From NCBI GenBank assembly GCA_016185205.1, contig JACPOA010000016.1, positions 1 to 64,000 of the forward strand: a stretch of 64,000 nucleotides of DNA. Direction: 5' to 3'. A model generated the notes under the pieces. That model was given only the letters and a program-made list of their open reading frames with translations. It made no database searches and had not been told where the DNA came from. The stretch is from Hyphomicrobiales bacterium. Its GTDB lineage: Bacteria > Pseudomonadota > Alphaproteobacteria > Rhizobiales > Xanthobacteraceae. This document shows positions 50,163 through 58,418 of the stretch, piece after piece. Every line of letters begins with the position of its first letter. Position 1 is the first letter of the stretch. The translations under genes were made by a program, and so were the position numbers.

Positions 50163-51656
50163 ATGGCGGTGCGGATGCCCGAACCGGATACGCAAGTGCT
50201 GGCCAGGCGCGAAGCGATCGTTAAGGCCTTGCGCGCCATCGTGCCGGGCGAAGGCGTGATCGCCACCACGCGCGAGATGAAGCCGTTCGAAAGCGACGGG
50301 CTGACCGCCTACCGCCAGACCCCCATGGTGGTGGTGCTGCCGGAGACCACCGAGCAGGTAAGCCAGGTGCTGGCCTATTGCCACGGCGAGGGGGTCAAGG
50401 TGGTGCCGCGCGGGGCCGGCACCTCGCTGTCCGGCGGCGCGCTGCCGCTGGCCGACGGCGTGCTGCTCGGCATGGCCAAGTTCAGCCGCATCAAGGACAT
50501 CGATTTCGCCAACCGCGTCGCGGTGGTGGAGCCGGGCGTCACCAATCTGGCGGTCAGCAATGCGGTGGCGCATGCCGGCTTCTATTACGCGCCCGATCCG
50601 TCCTCGCAGATCGCCTGCACCATCGGCGGCAATGTGGCGGAGAATTCCGGCGGCGTGCATTGCCTGAAATACGGCATGACCACCAACAATGTGCTGGGCT
50701 GCGAGCTGGTGCTGATGAACGGGGAGGTGGTGCGGTTGGGCGGCAAGCATCTCGACGCCGCAGGCTTCGACCTGCTCGGGCTGATCAACGGTTCGGAAGG
50801 ACTTCTTGGTGTCGTAACGGAAGTTACCGTGCGCATCCTGCAGAAGGCCGAAACGCAACGCGCCGTGCTGGTCGGCTTTCCCAGCTCGGAGGATGCCGGC
50901 GCCTGCGTTTCGCGCATTATCGGCGCCGGCATCATTCCCGCCGGCATGGAGATGATGGACCGGATGGCGATCCATGTGGTGGAGGAGTTTGTCCATGCCG
51001 GCTATCCGCTCGATGTCGAGGCGCTGCTGATCGTCGAGCTCGACGGCCCGCGCGCCGAGGTCGATCATTTGATCTCCCGGGTCGAGCAGATCGCCAAGCA
51101 ATGCCGCTCGATGACCTGCCGGGTGTCCACATCGGAAGAAGAACGGCTGCTGTTCTGGTCCGGACGCAAGGCGGCGTTCGGGGCGGTCGGCCGCATCTCG
51201 CCAGACTATTTCTGCATGGACGGCACCATTCCGCGCGCCCGGCTGCCGCAGGTGCTGGCCGAGATGAAAAAGATGTCGGAGCAATACGGCCTGCGCGTCG
51301 CCAATGTGTTCCATGCCGGCGACGGCAATCTGCATCCGCTCATTCTCTATGACGCCAATGTGCCGGGCGAGCTCGATCGCGCCGAACAGTTCGGCGCCGA
51401 CGTCCTCAAACTCTGCGTCAAGGTCGGCGGCGTGCTCACCGGCGAGCATGGCATCGGCGTCGAGAAGCGCGACCTGATGGGCGAGATGTTCTCCGAACTC
51501 GATCTGGCCGCCCAGCAGCGCGTCAAATGCGCGTTCGACGAAAAAGGCCTGCTCAATCCCGGCAAGGTGTTCCCGGTGCTGCGCAGCTGCGCCGAACTGG
51601 GCCGCATGCATGTTTCCGGCGGCAAGTTGCCGTTCCCGGATATTCCACGGTTTTGA
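50163..51656 (+). CDS. glcD: glycolate oxidase subunit GlcD
   Basis: FAD-binding subunit of the glycolate dehydrogenase GlcDEF, which oxidises glycolate to glyoxylate and passes electrons to the membrane quinone pool. The 497-aa protein has the PCMH-type FAD motifs VVPRGAGTSLSGGALP and DPSSQIACTIGGNVAENSGG and the C-terminal FAD-oxidase domain with GDGNLHPLI and GEHGIGVEKRDLM. CGGAGG precedes ATG 50163. First gene of glcDEF. Confidence 0.96.
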   Translation: MAVRMPEPDTQVLARREAIVKALRAIVPGEGVIATTREMKPFESDGLTAYRQTPMVVVLPETTEQVSQVLAYCHGEGVKVVPRGAGTSLSGGALPLADGVLLGMAKFSRIKDIDFANRVAVVEPGVTNLAVSNAVAHAGFYYAPDPSSQIACTIGGNVAENSGGVHCLKYGMTTNNVLGCELVLMNGEVVRLGGKHLDAAGFDLLGLINGSEGLLGVVTEVTVRILQKAETQRAVLVGFPSSEDAGACVSRIIGAGIIPAGMEMMDRMAIHVVEEFVHAGYPLDVEALLIVELDGPRAEVDHLISRVEQIAKQCRSMTCRVSTSEEERLLFWSGRKAAFGAVGRISPDYFCMDGTIPRARLPQVLAEMKKMSEQYGLRVANVFHAGDGNLHPLILYDANVPGELDRAEQFGADVLKLCVKVGGVLTGEHGIGVEKRDLMGEMFSELDLAAQQRVKCAFDEKGLLNPGKVFPVLRSCAELGRMHVSGGKLPFPDIPRF

Positions 51657-51685: not shown

Positions 51686-52900
51686 ATGACCGACACGTTG
51701 AAACCCCGCGACGCCCAAGAGGTCGAGGACGCCGTGCGCTGGGCGCTCGGCAACGACAAGGCGCTGGAACTCATCGGGCAGGGCAGCAAGCGCGCCATCG
51801 GCCGGCCGAGCCAGACCGACCTCACGCTCGACCTGTCCGGCCTCACCGGCGTCACGCTGTACGAGCCGGAGGAACTGGTGCTGTCGGCGCGCGCCGGCAC
51901 GCCGCTCAGCGAAATCGAGGCGCTGCTGGAGAAGAACAACCAGCAGCTCGCCTTCGAGCCGATGGACTACGGCCCGCTGCTCGGCGGGCAAGCCGGGGGC
52001 GGCACTATCGGCGGCACGATCGCGACCAATCTGTCCGGCCCGCGCCGCATCAAAGCGGGCGCCGCGCGCGATCATTTCCTCGGAGTCACATGCGTGACCG
52101 GCCGCGCCGAAACCATCAAGTCGGGCGGGCGCGTGGTGAAGAACGTCACCGGCTACGACATGTGCAAGCTCTTGGCCGGCTCCTGGGGCACGCTCGCCGC
52201 CATGACCGATGTCACCATCAAGGTGCTGCCCAAGCCGGAGGCCGAGGCGAGCGTGCTGGTCACCGGCCTCGACGACGCGCGCGCCTGCGCCGCCATGGCC
52301 GCCGCCATGGGCTCGTCATGCGATGTTTCCGCCGCCGCGCATCTGCCCGATCACGTGGCGTCCTATTTCGACGGTCTGCCGAAGCCGGAAGCCAGCACCG
52401 TTCTCAGACTGGAAGGCGTGGCGCCGTCGGTCGCGCATCGCAAGGCCGCGCTGGCCGCGCTGCTGCGGCCGTTCGGCCCGGTGGCGCTGCTCGATGAGAA
52501 AGACTCGAGCCTGCTCTGGCGCAGTGTGCGGCAGGTCAAGCCGTTCACGTCAGAGGCGGCGCGCGAGCGCCCGCTCTGGCGCATCTCGACCGCGCCGGCC
52601 CGCGGTCATGAGCTGGTCGATCTGATCACGCCGGCGGCGCAGATGTTCTACGACTGGGCCGGCGGCCTGGTGTGGGTGGCGATGCCGTTCGCGCACGAGC
52701 CCGATGCGGCTGCAATTCGCGGCGCGGTCAAAAAGCTCGGTGGCCACGCCACGCTGGTGCGCGCGCCGGCTTCGGTGCGCGCCGCGCTCGACGTGTTCGA
52801 GCCGCAGGCGGCGGGCCTGGCCGCGCTTAGCAAGCGTGTGAAGGAGGGCTTCGATCCCAAGGGCGTGCTCAATCCCGGCCGCATGTGGGCGGGGGTGTAG
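51686..52900 (+). CDS. glcE: glycolate oxidase subunit GlcE
   Basis: Second flavin subunit of glycolate dehydrogenase. The 404-aa protein has an FAD-binding PCMH domain (LYEPEELVLSARAGTPLSEIE, GGTIGGTIATNLSGPRR, VVKNVTGYDMCKLLAGS) and a short C-terminal FAD-oxidase region ending FDPKGVLNPGRMW. ATG 51686 is used; an open frame begins earlier inside glcD. GlcF follows after 3 bp. Confidence 0.94.
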   Translation: MTDTLKPRDAQEVEDAVRWALGNDKALELIGQGSKRAIGRPSQTDLTLDLSGLTGVTLYEPEELVLSARAGTPLSEIEALLEKNNQQLAFEPMDYGPLLGGQAGGGTIGGTIATNLSGPRRIKAGAARDHFLGVTCVTGRAETIKSGGRVVKNVTGYDMCKLLAGSWGTLAAMTDVTIKVLPKPEAEASVLVTGLDDARACAAMAAAMGSSCDVSAAAHLPDHVASYFDGLPKPEASTVLRLEGVAPSVAHRKAALAALLRPFGPVALLDEKDSSLLWRSVRQVKPFTSEAARERPLWRISTAPARGHELVDLITPAAQMFYDWAGGLVWVAMPFAHEPDAAAIRGAVKKLGGHATLVRAPASVRAALDVFEPQAAGLAALSKRVKEGFDPKGVLNPGRMWAGV

Positions 52901-52903
52901 TCT

Positions 52904-54241
52904 ATGCAAACCACCTTCTCCCTCACCCAGCTGGCCGATCCGCAGGTCTATGCCTCGGAGAAAATCCTGCGCACCTGCGTGCATTGCGGCTTCTGCACCG
53001 CCACCTGTCCGACCTATGTGCTGCTCGGCGACGAGCTCGATAGTCCGCGCGGGCGCATCTATCTGATCAAGGACATGCTCGAGAACGATCGGCCGGCCAC
53101 GCGCGAAGTGGTCAAGCATATCGATCGCTGTCTGTCGTGCCTCGCCTGCATGACCACTTGTCCGTCCGGCGTGCATTACATGCATCTGGTCGATCACGCC
53201 CGCGAGCACATCGAGAAGACTTACAAGCGCCCGCTGTTCGACCGGCTCATACGTTCGCTGCTCGCGCGCGTGCTGACCGATCCGGCGCTGTTCCGGCTCG
53301 CCGCCGTGGCCGGCTGGATCGCCAAACCGCTGGCGCCTCTGCTGCGCGCGCTCGGCCTCAAGCGCATGGCGGCGATGCTGCGGCTGACGCCGGGGCGCCG
53401 GCTGGCGCCGCCAACCGAGCGCACCGGCAAGGTCCATGCCGCGCTCGGGCCTCGCCGCGGCCGGGTGGCTTTGCTGTCGGGCTGCATCGGTCCGGAGCTG
53501 GCGCCCTCGACCAACGAGGCCGCCATCCGCCTGCTCAACCGCCAGGGCGTCGAGGTGGTGGTGGCGGCGGGCGAAGCCTGCTGCGGCTCGCTGGTGCACC
53601 ACATGGGCCGCGAGCAGCAGGCGCTGGCGATGGCGCGCAACAATATCGACGCCTGGACGCGCGAGCTCGAAGGAGCGGGGCTCGACGCCATCCTGATCAC
53701 CGTCTCCGGCTGCGGCACGGCGGTGAAGGACTATGGCTTCATGCTGCGCACCGATCCGGCCTATGCCGTCAAGGCGGCGCGGATTTCGGCGCTGGCCAAG
53801 GACGTCAGCGAATATCTGGCGACGCTCGATATTCAGGCAGCGGCGCCGCCGGCGCAGCTCACCGTCGCCTATCATGCCGCCTGTTCGCTGCAGCATGGTC
53901 AAAAGGTCACGCGTGAACCGAAAGAATTGCTTTCCAAGTGCGGCTTTGTCGTCAAAGATGTGCCAGAGGGGCATTTGTGTTGCGGCTCCGCCGGCACCTA
54001 CAACATTCTCCAGCCCGAACTGGCGGAGAGGTTGCGGGACCGCAAGGTCGCCAACATCGAAAAGCTCCAGCCGGACGTGATCGCAGCCGGCAATATCGGC
54101 TGCATCACGCAGATCGCCGCCGGCACCGCCATTCCGGTCGTCCATACCGTCGAATTGCTCGACTGGGCGACCGGCGGCCCGGTGCCGGAGCCGTTGCGGA
54201 TGCTGGCGGGCGTTGAGCCCGCGGCCGCGGCAACCGGCTAG
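52904..54241 (+). CDS. glcF: glycolate oxidase iron-sulfur subunit GlcF
   Basis: Electron-transfer subunit with two [4Fe-4S] ferredoxin clusters: CVHCGFCTATCPTY and CLSCLACMTTCPSG. It then has two CCG domains (EACCGSLVHHMG region and GHLCCGSAGTYN). The 445-aa length is normal. It probably anchors the complex at the inner membrane. The start codon is ATG 52904, three bases after glcE. Confidence 0.96.
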   Translation: MQTTFSLTQLADPQVYASEKILRTCVHCGFCTATCPTYVLLGDELDSPRGRIYLIKDMLENDRPATREVVKHIDRCLSCLACMTTCPSGVHYMHLVDHAREHIEKTYKRPLFDRLIRSLLARVLTDPALFRLAAVAGWIAKPLAPLLRALGLKRMAAMLRLTPGRRLAPPTERTGKVHAALGPRRGRVALLSGCIGPELAPSTNEAAIRLLNRQGVEVVVAAGEACCGSLVHHMGREQQALAMARNNIDAWTRELEGAGLDAILITVSGCGTAVKDYGFMLRTDPAYAVKAARISALAKDVSEYLATLDIQAAAPPAQLTVAYHAACSLQHGQKVTREPKELLSKCGFVVKDVPEGHLCCGSAGTYNILQPELAERLRDRKVANIEKLQPDVIAAGNIGCITQIAAGTAIPVVHTVELLDWATGGPVPEPLRMLAGVEPAAAATG

Positions 54242-54315: not shown

Positions 54316-54537
54316 ATGGCGAAGAAGAAGCGGAAGGCAAAAGCGAAGGCGAAGAAACCCAAGAAGACGAAACGCGCCCCGGCGCGCGGGAAGAAGAAGG
54401 GGATGAAGAAGGCGGCCAAGAAGGTCACCACGAAGAGGAAGGCCGTGGCGAAGACGCCGGCACCCGCTCCGCAGACACCGCCGCCGGCGTCCCCGGCGAG
54501 CGGCTTCGGCGGGCTGTTTGGCGGGAAGGGCGAATGA
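54316..54537 (+). CDS. 73-aa Lys/Ala-rich histone-H1-like peptide
   Basis: The first 45 residues are nearly all Lys, Ala, Arg, Thr and Pro (AKKKRKAKAKAKKPKKTKRA, then GKKKGMKKAAKKVTTKRK), followed by a Pro-rich linker and GFGGLFGGKGE. Net charge is strongly positive. It resembles bacterial H1-like or Hc1-like DNA-binding tails. GGGAGG precedes ATG 54316. Its stop overlaps the malate synthase start (ATGA), whose own N-terminus has the same composition. Function unknown. Confidence 0.7.
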   Translation: MAKKKRKAKAKAKKPKKTKRAPARGKKKGMKKAAKKVTTKRKAVAKTPAPAPQTPPPASPASGFGGLFGGKGE

Positions 54538-56294
54538 AGACCAGTAGACCGACGCCCAAGCGAGCGGCCGCCGCCAAAAAGGCGGCCGCTCGAAAAAAGA
54601 AACGCAAGGCTCCCAAACCGCGCCCGGCCCGCCGCAAAGCCGCGGCCAAACGCACGTCCGTGCGCAAGCCGAAGGTCCAGGCCGCCCGCAAGCCCGCCGT
54701 GCTCGCGTCAGTGCCAGGTATTGCCGTGCGTGGCCGCATGGGCCCGCGCTATGCGGAGATACTCACCCGCGATGCGCTCGCCTTCCTGGCCGAGTTGCAC
54801 CGCCGCTTCGACGGCAAGCGCCGCAAACTGCTGGCCGCGCGCGCCGAACAGCAGCAACGCTTCGACGCCGGCGAATTGCCGGATTTCCCGCCTGAGACGA
54901 AGGCTATTCGCGACGACGACAGTTGGCGCGTGGCGCCGATTCCGGCCGATCTTACCGACCGCCGCGTGGAAATCACCGGCCCGGTTGACCGCAAGATGAT
55001 CGTCAACGCGCTCAATTCCGGCGCCACCCACTACATGGCTGATTTCGAGGACGCCAATTCGCCAACCTGGGCGAATAATCTCGAGGGCCAGATCAATCTG
55101 AAGGATCGTTGGCAGGGCCAAATCGATTTCACCGATCCGCATACAAAAAAGCGCTACGCGATCGGTCCGAAGCCGGCGGTGCTGATCGTGCGCCCGCGCG
55201 GCTGGCACCTGCCGGAAGCGCATCTGACGGTCGACGGCGCGCCGATATCGGGCGCGCTGTTCGATTTCGGTTTGTATGTTTTCCACAATGCCAAGGCGCA
55301 GATCGCCCAGGGCAGCGGCCCCTATTTCTATCTGCCCAAGCTCGAAAGCCACCATGAGGCGCGGCTGTGGAACGACGTGTTCCTGTTCGCGCAGGAACGG
55401 CTCGGCATTGCGAAGGGCACCATCAAGGCAACGGTGCTGATCGAAACCCTGCCGGCCGCCTTCGAGATGGACGACATCCTGTGGGAAATGCGCGATCACA
55501 TCGCCGGCATGAATGCCGGACGCTGGGACTACATCTTCTCCTTCATCAAGACCTTCGCCAAGAATCCGAATTACGTGTTGCCCGACCGCTCGCAGGTGGT
55601 GATGGGCGAGGGCTTTCTCGGCGGTTATGCATCGCTGCTGGTGCGCACCTGCCACCGCCGCGGCGCTTTCGCCATGGGTGGCATGGCGGCGCAAATCCCG
55701 ATCAAGAACGATCCCGCCGCCAACGCGGCTGCCTTCGCCAAAGTGCGCGCCGACAAAGAACGCGAGGTGCGCGACGGCTATGACGGCACCTGGGTGGCGC
55801 ATCCCGACCTGGTACCGGTGGCCAAGGAAGTGTTCGACCGCCTGATGCCGCAGCCGAACCAGGTTGGCCGCGTCCGCCTGCATGTGCGCGTACTGCGCGA
55901 TGACCTGTTGAAGATTCACGAGGGGACCAAGACCGAAGCGGGCGTGCGCCTCAATATCCGGGTCGGCGTGCAATATATCGAGGCTTGGTTGCGCGGGCGC
56001 GGCGCAGTGCCGATCTACAATCTCATGGAAGATGCGGCTACCGCCGAGATTTCCCGCGCGCAGATTTGGCAATGGATTAAATATGGCGCCGTGCTCGAGG
56101 GCGGTATTAAGGTGACGCCGGAATTCTTCCGGCGCGCGCTCAAGGAAGAGATGCAGGTGGTCAAACGCGAGATCGGGGCGGCGCATTACGCGCGCGGGCG
56201 CTTCCCGGAAGCGATCAAGCTGTTTCGCGACCTGTCGCTGGCGCCCGAGTTCGTGCCGTTCCTGACGGTTCCGGCTTATGAATTGATCGTCTGA
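54534..56294 (+). CDS. aceB: malate synthase A with Lys/Ala-rich N-terminal extension
   Basis: It condenses glyoxylate with acetyl-CoA to malate. The catalytic part (from about residue 60) is a complete malate synthase A: THYMADFEDANSPTWAN, VLIVRPRGWHLPEAHL, GPYFYLPKLESHHEARLWN, VLIETLPAAFEMDDIL, and NPNYVLPDRSQVVMG. Family proteins are about 530 aa; this one is 586 because it begins with about 57 residues of Lys/Arg/Ala/Pro repeats (KRAAAAKKAAARKKKRKA, RPARRKAAAKRT). ATG 54534 overlaps the stop of the Lys-rich 73-aa gene. GTG codons near 54700 could start a normal-length enzyme. It follows glcDEF, completing a glycolate-to-malate route. Confidence 0.9.
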   Translation: MKTSRPTPKRAAAAKKAAARKKKRKAPKPRPARRKAAAKRTSVRKPKVQAARKPAVLASVPGIAVRGRMGPRYAEILTRDALAFLAELHRRFDGKRRKLLAARAEQQQRFDAGELPDFPPETKAIRDDDSWRVAPIPADLTDRRVEITGPVDRKMIVNALNSGATHYMADFEDANSPTWANNLEGQINLKDRWQGQIDFTDPHTKKRYAIGPKPAVLIVRPRGWHLPEAHLTVDGAPISGALFDFGLYVFHNAKAQIAQGSGPYFYLPKLESHHEARLWNDVFLFAQERLGIAKGTIKATVLIETLPAAFEMDDILWEMRDHIAGMNAGRWDYIFSFIKTFAKNPNYVLPDRSQVVMGEGFLGGYASLLVRTCHRRGAFAMGGMAAQIPIKNDPAANAAAFAKVRADKEREVRDGYDGTWVAHPDLVPVAKEVFDRLMPQPNQVGRVRLHVRVLRDDLLKIHEGTKTEAGVRLNIRVGVQYIEAWLRGRGAVPIYNLMEDAATAEISRAQIWQWIKYGAVLEGGIKVTPEFFRRALKEEMQVVKREIGAAHYARGRFPEAIKLFRDLSLAPEFVPFLTVPAYELIV

Positions 56295-56495: not shown

Positions 56496-57569
56496 ATGCC
56501 GGCGGCTTACAAAATTCTGATCATGGGCGCGTCCTACGGGTCGCTGCTGGCTTCGAAGTTGCTGTTCGGCGGCCACTCGATCCATCTTGTCTGTCTGCCG
56601 GCGGAAGCCGACCTGATCAATGCCGAGGGTTTCCGCGTGCGGCTGCCGGTGAAGGGCCGCAAGGAGCCGGTCGAGCTCGATTCGCGCAAACTGCCGGGCA
56701 AGGTGACCGCCGGCGGCGTGGCCAACGTCAATCCCAGGGACTATGACCTGGTCGGGCTAGCGATGCAGGAGCCGCAGTTCCGCTCGCCCGGCGTGCGCGA
56801 TCTGCTCGACGCGGTGGCGGTCTCCAAGGTGCCCTGCATGTCGATCATGAACATGCCGCCGCTGCCTTACATCAAGCGCATCCCTGGCCTCGACTACGAG
56901 GCGCTCAAGCCGGCCTATACTGATCCGACGGTATGGGACCATTTCGATCCCGGTCTACTCACTTTGTGCAGCCCCGACCCGCAGGCGATTCGGCCGCCGG
57001 ATGAAAAGGTCAACGTGCTGCAGGTCACGCTGCCGACCAATTTCAAGGTCGCCAAGTTCGATAACGACAAGCACACCGCCATCTTGCGCCAACTTGAGAA
57101 GGATATCGACGCGGTGCGCTTCGACGCGCCGGAAGGCAAGATCGAATTGCCAGTGAAACTCAAGGTGCACGATTCGATTTTCGTGCCGCTTGCCAAGTGG
57201 TCGATGCTGCTGGCCGGCAACTATCGCTGCATCACCAAGGACGGCATGCGCACCGCCAAGGAAGCGGTGCATACCAACATCGAGGAGTCGCGCTCGGTGT
57301 ACAATTTCGTGTTCGACCTCTGCGTCAAGCTCGGCGCCAATCCGAGCGACCTGGTGCCGTTCGAGAAATATGCCGCCGCGGCGCAGAGCCTCACGCGTCC
57401 GGCTTCCGCCGCGCGCGCGCTGTTCAACGGTGCGCCCAATATCGAACGCTGCGACAAGCTGGTGCAGCTTATCGCCAAGCAGAAGGGGCTGAGCCATCCG
57501 GTGATCGACGCCAACGTGGCGCTGGTTGACGAGCTGCTGGCGGTCAACCGCAAGAAGGCGGCGGCGTAA
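56496..57569 (+). CDS. ketopantoate-reductase-like dehydrogenase
   Basis: A 359-aa cytoplasmic protein with an N-terminal Rossmann start (YKILIMGASYGSLLASKLLFGG) and overall layout like 2-dehydropantoate 2-reductase or opine dehydrogenases. The rest is divergent (MNMPPLPYIKRIPGL; ALFNGAPNIERCDKLVQLIA; GLSHPVIDANVALVDELL). AGGAG lies nine bases before ATG 56496. It probably reduces a keto acid or imine with NAD(P)H, but the substrate is unknown. A decayed partial copy of its 3' end lies at 58172-58418. A sigma-54-type promoter precedes it. Confidence 0.75.
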   Translation: MPAAYKILIMGASYGSLLASKLLFGGHSIHLVCLPAEADLINAEGFRVRLPVKGRKEPVELDSRKLPGKVTAGGVANVNPRDYDLVGLAMQEPQFRSPGVRDLLDAVAVSKVPCMSIMNMPPLPYIKRIPGLDYEALKPAYTDPTVWDHFDPGLLTLCSPDPQAIRPPDEKVNVLQVTLPTNFKVAKFDNDKHTAILRQLEKDIDAVRFDAPEGKIELPVKLKVHDSIFVPLAKWSMLLAGNYRCITKDGMRTAKEAVHTNIEESRSVYNFVFDLCVKLGANPSDLVPFEKYAAAAQSLTRPASAARALFNGAPNIERCDKLVQLIAKQKGLSHPVIDANVALVDELLAVNRKKAAA

Positions 57570-57973: not shown

Positions 57974-58210
57974 ATGAAGAAAGTTTTATTGTCTGTGGTC
58001 GCGGCGCTGGCGGTTTTGGCAGCGGTGCACTCATTTGCCGCGGCGGAGGTGCCGGTGAAAGCCGCCAAGTTTGCTGCGGCGGATGTGCCGGCGAAAGCCG
58101 CCAAGGCTCCGGTTGCGGCCTCACGGCGGGATACTTCCAAGATAACCGGCCACGTTGAGGCTGGCACGCAGGCGAACCGCCAAGGAAGCGGTGGACACCA
58201 TCATCATTGA
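57974..58210 (+). CDS. small secreted Ala/Lys-rich protein with His tail
   Basis: A 78-aa protein with a Sec signal peptide (MKKVLLSVVAALAVLAAVHSFA). The mature part has a twofold repeat (AEVPVKAAKFAA / ADVPAKAAKAPVAA). From about residue 58 the frame runs into the decayed duplicate of the reductase-like gene in a different frame, giving a tail ending GSGGHHHH. So the C-terminus appears to be newly formed from non-homologous sequence. No family recognised. The sigma-54 promoter suggests regulated expression. Confidence 0.6.
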   Translation: MKKVLLSVVAALAVLAAVHSFAAAEVPVKAAKFAAADVPAKAAKAPVAASRRDTSKITGHVEAGTQANRQGSGGHHHH

Positions 58211-58418
58211 GGAGCCGCGCTCGCCGCCGCGGCGCTTAGCCTGTCGCGATTGGTCTCCGTCGCGCGCGCTGTTCAACGGCGCGCCCAACATCGAACGCGC
58301 CGACAAGCTGGTGCAGATCATCGCCAAGCAGAAGGGCCTGAGCCACCCGGTGATCGACGCCAACGTGGCGCTGGTCGACGAGCTGCTCGACAAGAACCGC
58401 GAGAAGGCGGCGGCGTGA
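58172..58418 (+). pseudogene. decayed partial duplicate of the reductase-like gene
   Basis: Two blocks match the 3' part of the gene at 56496-57569. 58172-58225 corresponds to the TAKEAVHTNIEESRS coding region. 58261-58418 corresponds to the last 52 codons (ALFNGAPNIERADKLVQIIA, GLSHPVIDANVALVDELL). About 100 bp between them is lost and replaced by about 35 unrelated bases. No start or Rossmann part remains. Stops of both copies coincide (AAA-stop). Confidence 0.85.

Follow-up and report, generated by a model that had tools for sequence, protein, structure and literature searches.

A lysine-rich, histone-H1-like module encoded behind glcF and joined to malate synthase A in Xanthobacteraceae

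Analysis of the genes behind glcF in a Hyphomicrobiales bacterium and its relatives in the family Xanthobacteraceae revealed a lysine-rich, histone-H1-like module. The module is found as a free small ORF and as a tail in frame with the N terminus of an enzyme, which is malate synthase A in the window (the whole stretch of 64,000 nucleotides that was analyzed, from contig JACPOA010000016.1). Judged from sequence, it is well supported that the tail and the ORF are coding, that they are strongly positive wherever they are present, and that they are modular and linked to glcF. The glycolate operon may possess a modular, disordered, polyanion-binding tether, an H1-like module that would co-locate the producer and the consumer of glyoxylate. 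We consider this reading about evenly poised between right and wrong. The features of the window are listed in Table 1.

Table 1. Features of the glycolate oxidase region of the window
Feature	Coordinates	Strand	Basis
glcD-like subunit	50163..51656	+	Position and sequence reading
glcE-like subunit	51686..52900	+	Position and sequence reading; start inferred, longest ORF from 51527
glcF, glycolate oxidase iron-sulfur subunit	52904..54241	+	NF008434, 464.6 bits (cutoff, 333)
Free histone-H1-like ORF, 73 aa	54316..54537	+	Composition; position directly behind glcF
Polycationic tail, residues 1 to 57 of malate synthase	54534..54704	+	Composition and AlphaFold2 pLDDT
Malate synthase A, 586 aa, including the N-terminal polycationic tail	54534..56294	+	TIGR01344 and Pfam profiles
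Ketopantoate-reductase-like enzyme, gene after malate synthase	56496..57569	+	Foldseek of predicted model

The first-pass annotation had described a complete malate synthase A following the tail, and the profile search agrees with this description. The ORF matches TIGR01344 at 844.5 bits (cutoff, 594.5), with residues 76 to 585 covering positions 1 to 510 of the 511 positions of the model. The Pfam domains MS_N (from residue 63), MS_TIM-barrel, and MS_C are all present. Residues E304, D332, and D500, the acidic residues of the ET-L, GRWD, and MEDAATAE motifs, which serve in catalysis, are invariant in 20 aligned sequences. On these matches, the ORF is a complete malate synthase A behind the tail. 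Alignment with the solved malate synthase A structures 3cux and 3cuz (709 and 599 bits) starts at residues 63 and 68 of the window enzyme, where the numbering of the solved chains is 7 or 15; approximately 56 residues of the window enzyme are therefore extra. By sequence, these ordinary bacterial enzymes have the same catalytic region throughout, whereas the tail is absent from them and present in the window enzyme. The source genome (96% complete) contains one malate synthase A match and no match to malate synthase G, and the isocitrate lyase family gave weak matches alone (42 and 40 bits). Because this is the sole malate synthase found and the isocitrate lyase family is represented by weak matches alone, the main duty of the tailed enzyme is probably glycolate assimilation.

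The tail had been described as about 57 residues made almost entirely of Lys, Arg, Ala, and Pro. These four residues do account for 46 of the 57 positions (81%; 15 A, 14 K, 10 R, and 7 P), and neither D nor E is present. In the AlphaFold2 model of the malate synthase, generated with 20 aligned relatives (mean pLDDT, 76.1), the pLDDT is below 50 at residues 1 to 56 and 89 to 97 at residues 61 to 110; values below 50 were also obtained for three short segments of the core. The free ORF, which was absent from the first-pass annotation, encodes 22 K and 4 R and has the C-terminal sequence SGFGGLFGGKGE. Its stop codon overlaps the malate synthase ATG, and the ATGA overlap reported previously is seen at positions 54534 to 54537. 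By composition, both the tail and the free ORF are K/A/P-rich, strongly positive arms of a putatively disordered kind; reading of the two sequences revealed no tandem KPAA-type repeats. The free ORF gave no match in Pfam (to E 10) or in NCBIfam (to E 1), and the only curated model retrieved with the tail alone was DUF6465 at E 5.4, far below its cutoff. A search of the source genome with the free ORF returned nothing but the ORF itself above noise. Because low complexity defeats sequence search for the free ORF, its relatives were traced by linkage to glcF instead.

Among the 344 ORFs in the window that start with ATG and encode 40 or more amino acids, 4 contain at least 9 K per 40 residues, and the malate synthase gene and the preceding ORF account for two of them. 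Of the 1125 other ORFs near the 61 malate synthase loci of the family, 1 was K-rich by the same measure. Chance composition as an explanation of the tail is ruled out by this rarity.

A tail of this kind could also be an artifact if the true start lay downstream and the tail were an untranslated GC-rich open frame, which we judge to be very improbable. The first-pass annotation had named translation from a GTG near 54700 as a finding that would speak against the tail, and GTG codons are present in the window gene at 54660, 54699, 54711, and 54726. The Shine-Dalgarno site before 54534 gives −8.4 kcal/mol with the 16S end, a better value than at any local codon position tested, whereas none of the five internal starts does better than −3.9 kcal/mol; the comparison favors the tail start. 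The Shine-Dalgarno site at the tail start ranks among the top 10% of local codons for 27 of 39 ATG-started tails (window included) and lower for the other 12. Six of the 39 genes are without an internal start. Among the 33 genes with one, the tail start beats every internal start in 27, and an internal start is stronger in 6 (G015, G179, G135, G214, G115, and G128). GTG or TTG is the sole tail start for 6 of 45 tails. These six relatives without a tail ATG and the six weaker tail starts are, together with the GTG codons of the window, the points in favor of a downstream start. They are opposed by the Shine-Dalgarno site at the tail start of the window gene, which is the best of its candidate starts, by the six relatives lacking any internal start, by the scarcity of lysine-rich frames by chance (1/1125), and by AGGAGGAG, which is found directly before the tails of 463 and 492 residues in two genes of genus g84. 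Translation of the tail is well supported because an open frame and positive charge are found in 45 tailed relatives, with a Shine-Dalgarno site in most of them. With the exceptions given above, the charge, codon, and ribosome-site evidence leads us to reject a wrong-start reading of the tail.

The distribution of the tail was determined in 391 family genomes, of which 73 gave a match and 61 provided a malate synthase A locus that was read. Three genomes with contig-end fragments or broken pieces alone (G043, G139, and G204) and nine with weak matches, probably to malate synthase G, were dropped. A tail was present in 45 of the 61 genes and absent from 16; 17 of the 21 genera are tailed, and g2, g7, g14, and g81 are untailed. 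The tail criterion spans 250 residues; a version limited to the last 100 residues missed long tails and gave 36 tailed and 25 untailed genes. Because tails were sought by extending the core's own frame upstream, every tail found is open by construction, and one shifted out of this frame would be scored as untailed. Frameshifted tails in orthologs had been named beforehand as evidence that would count against the tail. A search of all frames upstream of the 16 untailed genes revealed no lysine-rich ORF, and therefore no shifted tail was missed.

The 45 tails are 41 to 489 amino acids long by our start calls (median, 96). Their median K+R fraction is 0.34, D and E make up 1.5% of residues and are missing altogether from 27 tails, and the net charge ranges from +11 to +113 (median, +30). 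Outside the family, none of 11 loci of the same order with a readable N-terminal side is tailed (by reading). The best 80 of 591 malate synthase loci from elsewhere served as an outside control, and a K-rich N terminus is absent from 79 of these best 80. The remaining locus, L172, belongs to a distant proteobacterial metagenome bin; its long N-terminal tail is of the AKKAPAKK type, and similar runs are found in some relatives too. Neither GlcD nor GlcE carries a tail in the 39 and 46 loci, respectively, where these proteins were found. The longest tails, in genus g84, lie apart from glcF. Three loci (L102, L111, and L114, in G175, G154, and G125) have malate synthase tails of 463 to 492 residues and no glcF beside them; a search at E 1e-120 found no glcF in these three genomes, a threshold that also overlooks the glcF of G109.

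The region behind glcF was analyzed in the 126 genomes whose sequence extends 450 bp or more past the gene, and a K-rich ORF was counted if it started no more than 700 bp from the glcF stop. This sample was chosen, not random; it comprises all usable glcF loci of the same genus, the malate synthase A genomes, and one to three genomes from most other genera. A K-rich ORF was found behind glcF in 98 of the 126 genomes and in 36 of 44 genera. It is free alone in 69 of the 98 genomes and occurs in both a free and a malate-synthase-joined form in 16 (85 free in all), whereas 11 genomes have it joined to malate synthase alone and 2 have it joined to a ketopantoate-reductase-like enzyme. A malate synthase A locus is absent from 62 of the 98 genomes, and same-genus genomes lacking malate synthase A have mostly retained the K-rich ORF. 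In 25 genomes, a free ORF occurs alongside a malate synthase with a tail. By the criterion used, 28 of the 126 genomes have no K-rich ORF behind glcF. Three of these (two g64 and one g87) have a tailed malate synthase that the criterion overlooked; the remaining 25 include 18 from untailed genera, three from g63, two from g1, and one each from g15 and g59. In the untailed genera that were viewed (L279, L300, L302, L313, L015, and L028), a thiE-like gene, so named by reading, follows glcF at the place where the H1-like ORF would be. The first-pass claim of a translated tail of polyanion-binding type is well supported by sequence; the tail is not, however, peculiar to one malate synthase but is a form of a glcF-linked module. 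The binding to DNA, RNA, or polyphosphate and the moonlighting role that had been suggested for it are putative.

Attraction of the anionic aldehyde glyoxylate by a lysine arm, or Schiff base formation with it, is general chemistry. The arm could accordingly be a substrate buffer that concentrates glyoxylate (and acetyl-CoA) or binds glyoxylate as reversible Schiff bases, protecting and channeling it. The module accompanies the glyoxylate-producing glcDEF with or without malate synthase and, in many genomes where a glyoxylate-consuming enzyme comes next, is carried by that enzyme, as would suit a buffer. The tail is nevertheless dispensable elsewhere, being absent from 79 of the best 80 (of 591) outside loci and from 16 of 61 family genes, and a buffer does not account for the aromatic residues in the C-terminal part of the free ORFs. 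We regard this function as unlikely.

The C-terminal part in question was revealed by the composition of the free ORFs. Aromatic residues make up 4.4% of the last 35 residues versus 0.4% of the sequence before, and acidic residues make up 8.2% versus 1.3%. F, W, or Y is found in the last 35 residues in 62 of 79 rows and in the first 40 residues in 4 of 79, one of the 79 rows (G054) being a joined malate synthase and not a free ORF. No aromatic residue is present in the C-terminal part of 17 of the 79 rows, and this part differs among genera. The C-terminal segments of a few free ORFs look amphipathic, e.g., GWLESAASLLKK and LFESFLDLFK. Such ends would agree with a tail that holds malate synthase to the anionic inner membrane beside the quinone-linked glycolate oxidase; GlcDEF is held to be membrane-linked, and strongly basic segments bind anionic lipids. 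The C-terminal ends of many free ORFs are nevertheless rich in Gly, Ser, and Pro, and reading of the window tail revealed no hydrophobic or amphipathic segment. Attachment to the membrane is, like a buffer, not a probable explanation.

The module is also found on an enzyme other than malate synthase. In two genomes without malate synthase A (G018 and G035; loci L235/L293 and L239/L292), a K-rich arm is in frame with a homolog of the gene that follows malate synthase in the window, giving proteins of 421 and 419 amino acids. The window product has no Pfam match. Its predicted model (pLDDT, 79.6) has ketopantoate reductases as its nearest fold in Foldseek; the match to 3ghy_B has an E value of 9.1e-12 and a probability of 1.00 at 15% identity and an rmsd of 6.0. 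All of the top 7 rows are ketopantoate reductases (probability, 1.00; TMq, 0.56 to 0.60; rmsd, 4.9 to 6.0; identity, 13 to 16%), closely followed by members of the same superfamily, the D-mandelate and octopine dehydrogenases. By sequence family the assignment is not supported, as only 1 of 12 members matches TIGR00745 (PanE/ApbA), and that at E 0.044. The product is 76 to 85% identical to 11 relatives, and the gene is near glcF in at least 5 genera. The joins in G018 and G035 therefore place a like arm on two unrelated enzymes with a common place in the operon. The C-terminal part of this gene in the window (residues 252 to 357; 59% identity) recurs in incomplete form at positions 58173 to 58415 (+), in what looks like a decayed duplicate.

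The history of the tail was analyzed on a tree built from 70 malate synthase cores, with the broken gene of G054 left out. The tail needs three label changes on this tree, and the same result was obtained from the starred branches alone. A single clade of all tailed rows was tested and rejected (AU p 0.0128); one gain with several losses may be compatible with this test. In the free ORFs, synonymous codon changes outnumber nonsynonymous changes in all 7 pairs compared (11:1, 4:0, 19:8, 16:9, 8:1, 44:21, and 27:22), and length differences leave the C termini alike. In the tails, nonsynonymous changes outnumber synonymous changes in 10 of 12 pairs, whose cores differ mainly by synonymous changes. 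The tails of G000 and G037, for example, have 7 identical, 18 synonymous, and 25 nonsynonymous codons; the tails of G144 and G105 have a synonymous-to-nonsynonymous ratio of 12:7. Fast change with retained charge fits a disordered segment that is held to its composition, and it also fits a loosely constrained linker.

The rapid divergence of the tails could indicate near-neutral fusion, in which the H1-like ORF does the work, as a nucleoid or RNA protein of general function, and tails that arose by stop loss or duplication are tolerated. The 11 genomes in which the malate-synthase-joined ORF is the sole K-rich ORF behind glcF would agree with such an origin. So would the K-rich tails on other proteins of the source genome: K/A-rich tails were also found at the C termini of adenylate kinase, ribosomal protein L29, and a topoisomerase-I-like protein (names by reading), and K-rich chemistry is therefore not unique to the glycolate operon. 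Together with one more small H1-like ORF, these tails are located at L135 and L136 (C25:107487 and C25:114652), L134 (C25:12768), and L132 (C21:41630). Tolerated fusions do not readily account for a net positive charge in 45 of 45 tails with 1.5% acidic residues where the cores differ by at least 0.3 per site, for more than one origin or repeated loss of the tail, or for the co-occurrence of a free ORF with a tailed enzyme in 25 genomes. Near-neutral fusion is a rather weak candidate, with some small chance of being correct.

The tether reading can be put as a mechanism. The glycolate oxidase operon of the family would carry a dedicated, intrinsically disordered, polycationic module of the H1 type. 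The usual form is a free small protein encoded behind glcF, with a lysine-rich N-terminal arm and a short, often aromatic C-terminal part; in several lineages, a like module is found in frame at the N terminus of the next enzyme. Most probably, the arm would bind a shared polyanion, for which the candidates are nucleoid DNA, RNA, and polyphosphate; the opposite end of the free protein would hold an enzyme, or the fused enzyme would itself be the cargo. GlcDEF as the glyoxylate producer and malate synthase as the consumer could thereby be kept at one place. Polyanion binding, docking by the C-terminal part, co-localization and its benefit, and a common origin of the tail and the free ORF are what we infer here. 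The linkage to glcF with or without malate synthase A, the joins to two unrelated enzymes, and the retained charge favor this reading; the fast change of the tails, the weaker tail starts, the K-rich tails on other proteins of the genome, the variable C-terminal part, and the long g84 tails apart from glcF count against it. A broader proposal is made only tentatively and seems more doubtful: a family-wide polycationic adaptor, encoded by a fourth gene of the glycolate oxidase operon, might gather glyoxylate metabolism on a polyanion or condensate, with enzymes that join the operon gaining a fused adaptor and H1-like chemistry organizing a small-molecule pathway instead of chromosomes or storage granules. 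For bacteria in general, such an arm, conserved in a metabolic operon and carried by two unrelated enzymes, would imply that a pathway can be placed by charge. The system offers a convenient test case, with one deletable tail, a well-studied enzyme, and untailed sister genera as natural controls.

In bacteria, H1-like arms occur on DNA-acting enzymes and on the proteins by which storage granules are positioned. A lysine-rich arm on an enzyme is already known elsewhere; for the glycolate operon, no description of a lysine-rich malate synthase extension or of an H1-like module was found in a search of open-licence papers. AlgP (AlgR3) of Pseudomonas aeruginosa is described as a two-ended, H1-like protein with a disordered, positive Lys/Ala/Pro arm, tandem KPAA repeats at the C terminus, and a helical N-terminal domain (PMC9239181). 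Likened by that description, AlgP and the free ORFs have a common two-ended plan with a K/A/P arm (PMC9239181). The arm of AlgP is C-terminal and contains the KPAA array (PMC9239181), whereas the arm of the free ORFs is N-terminal and has no tandem KPAA in the window. Unlike AlgP as described there, the module here has its gene behind glcF and may be joined to an enzyme.

The module resembles AlgP, PhaF, and PhaM in architecture and composition; in these proteins, a basic arm contacts DNA or polyphosphate, and the opposite end carries a granule as cargo (PMC9239181, PMC13052382). PhaF and PhaM are described in the latter as granule-nucleoid tethers with a histone-like DNA-binding end and a cargo end (PMC13052382). 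Their cargo consists of PHB granules; by analogy with these tethers, the cargo here would be the enzymes of glycolate oxidation. The phasin domain is absent from the free ORF of the window by Pfam. A close parallel to an enzyme with an appended lysine-rich tail is actinobacterial topoisomerase I, which is reported to have a C-terminal lysine-repeat domain (PMC7398561). Topoisomerase I acts on DNA, whereas malate synthase acts on small metabolites.
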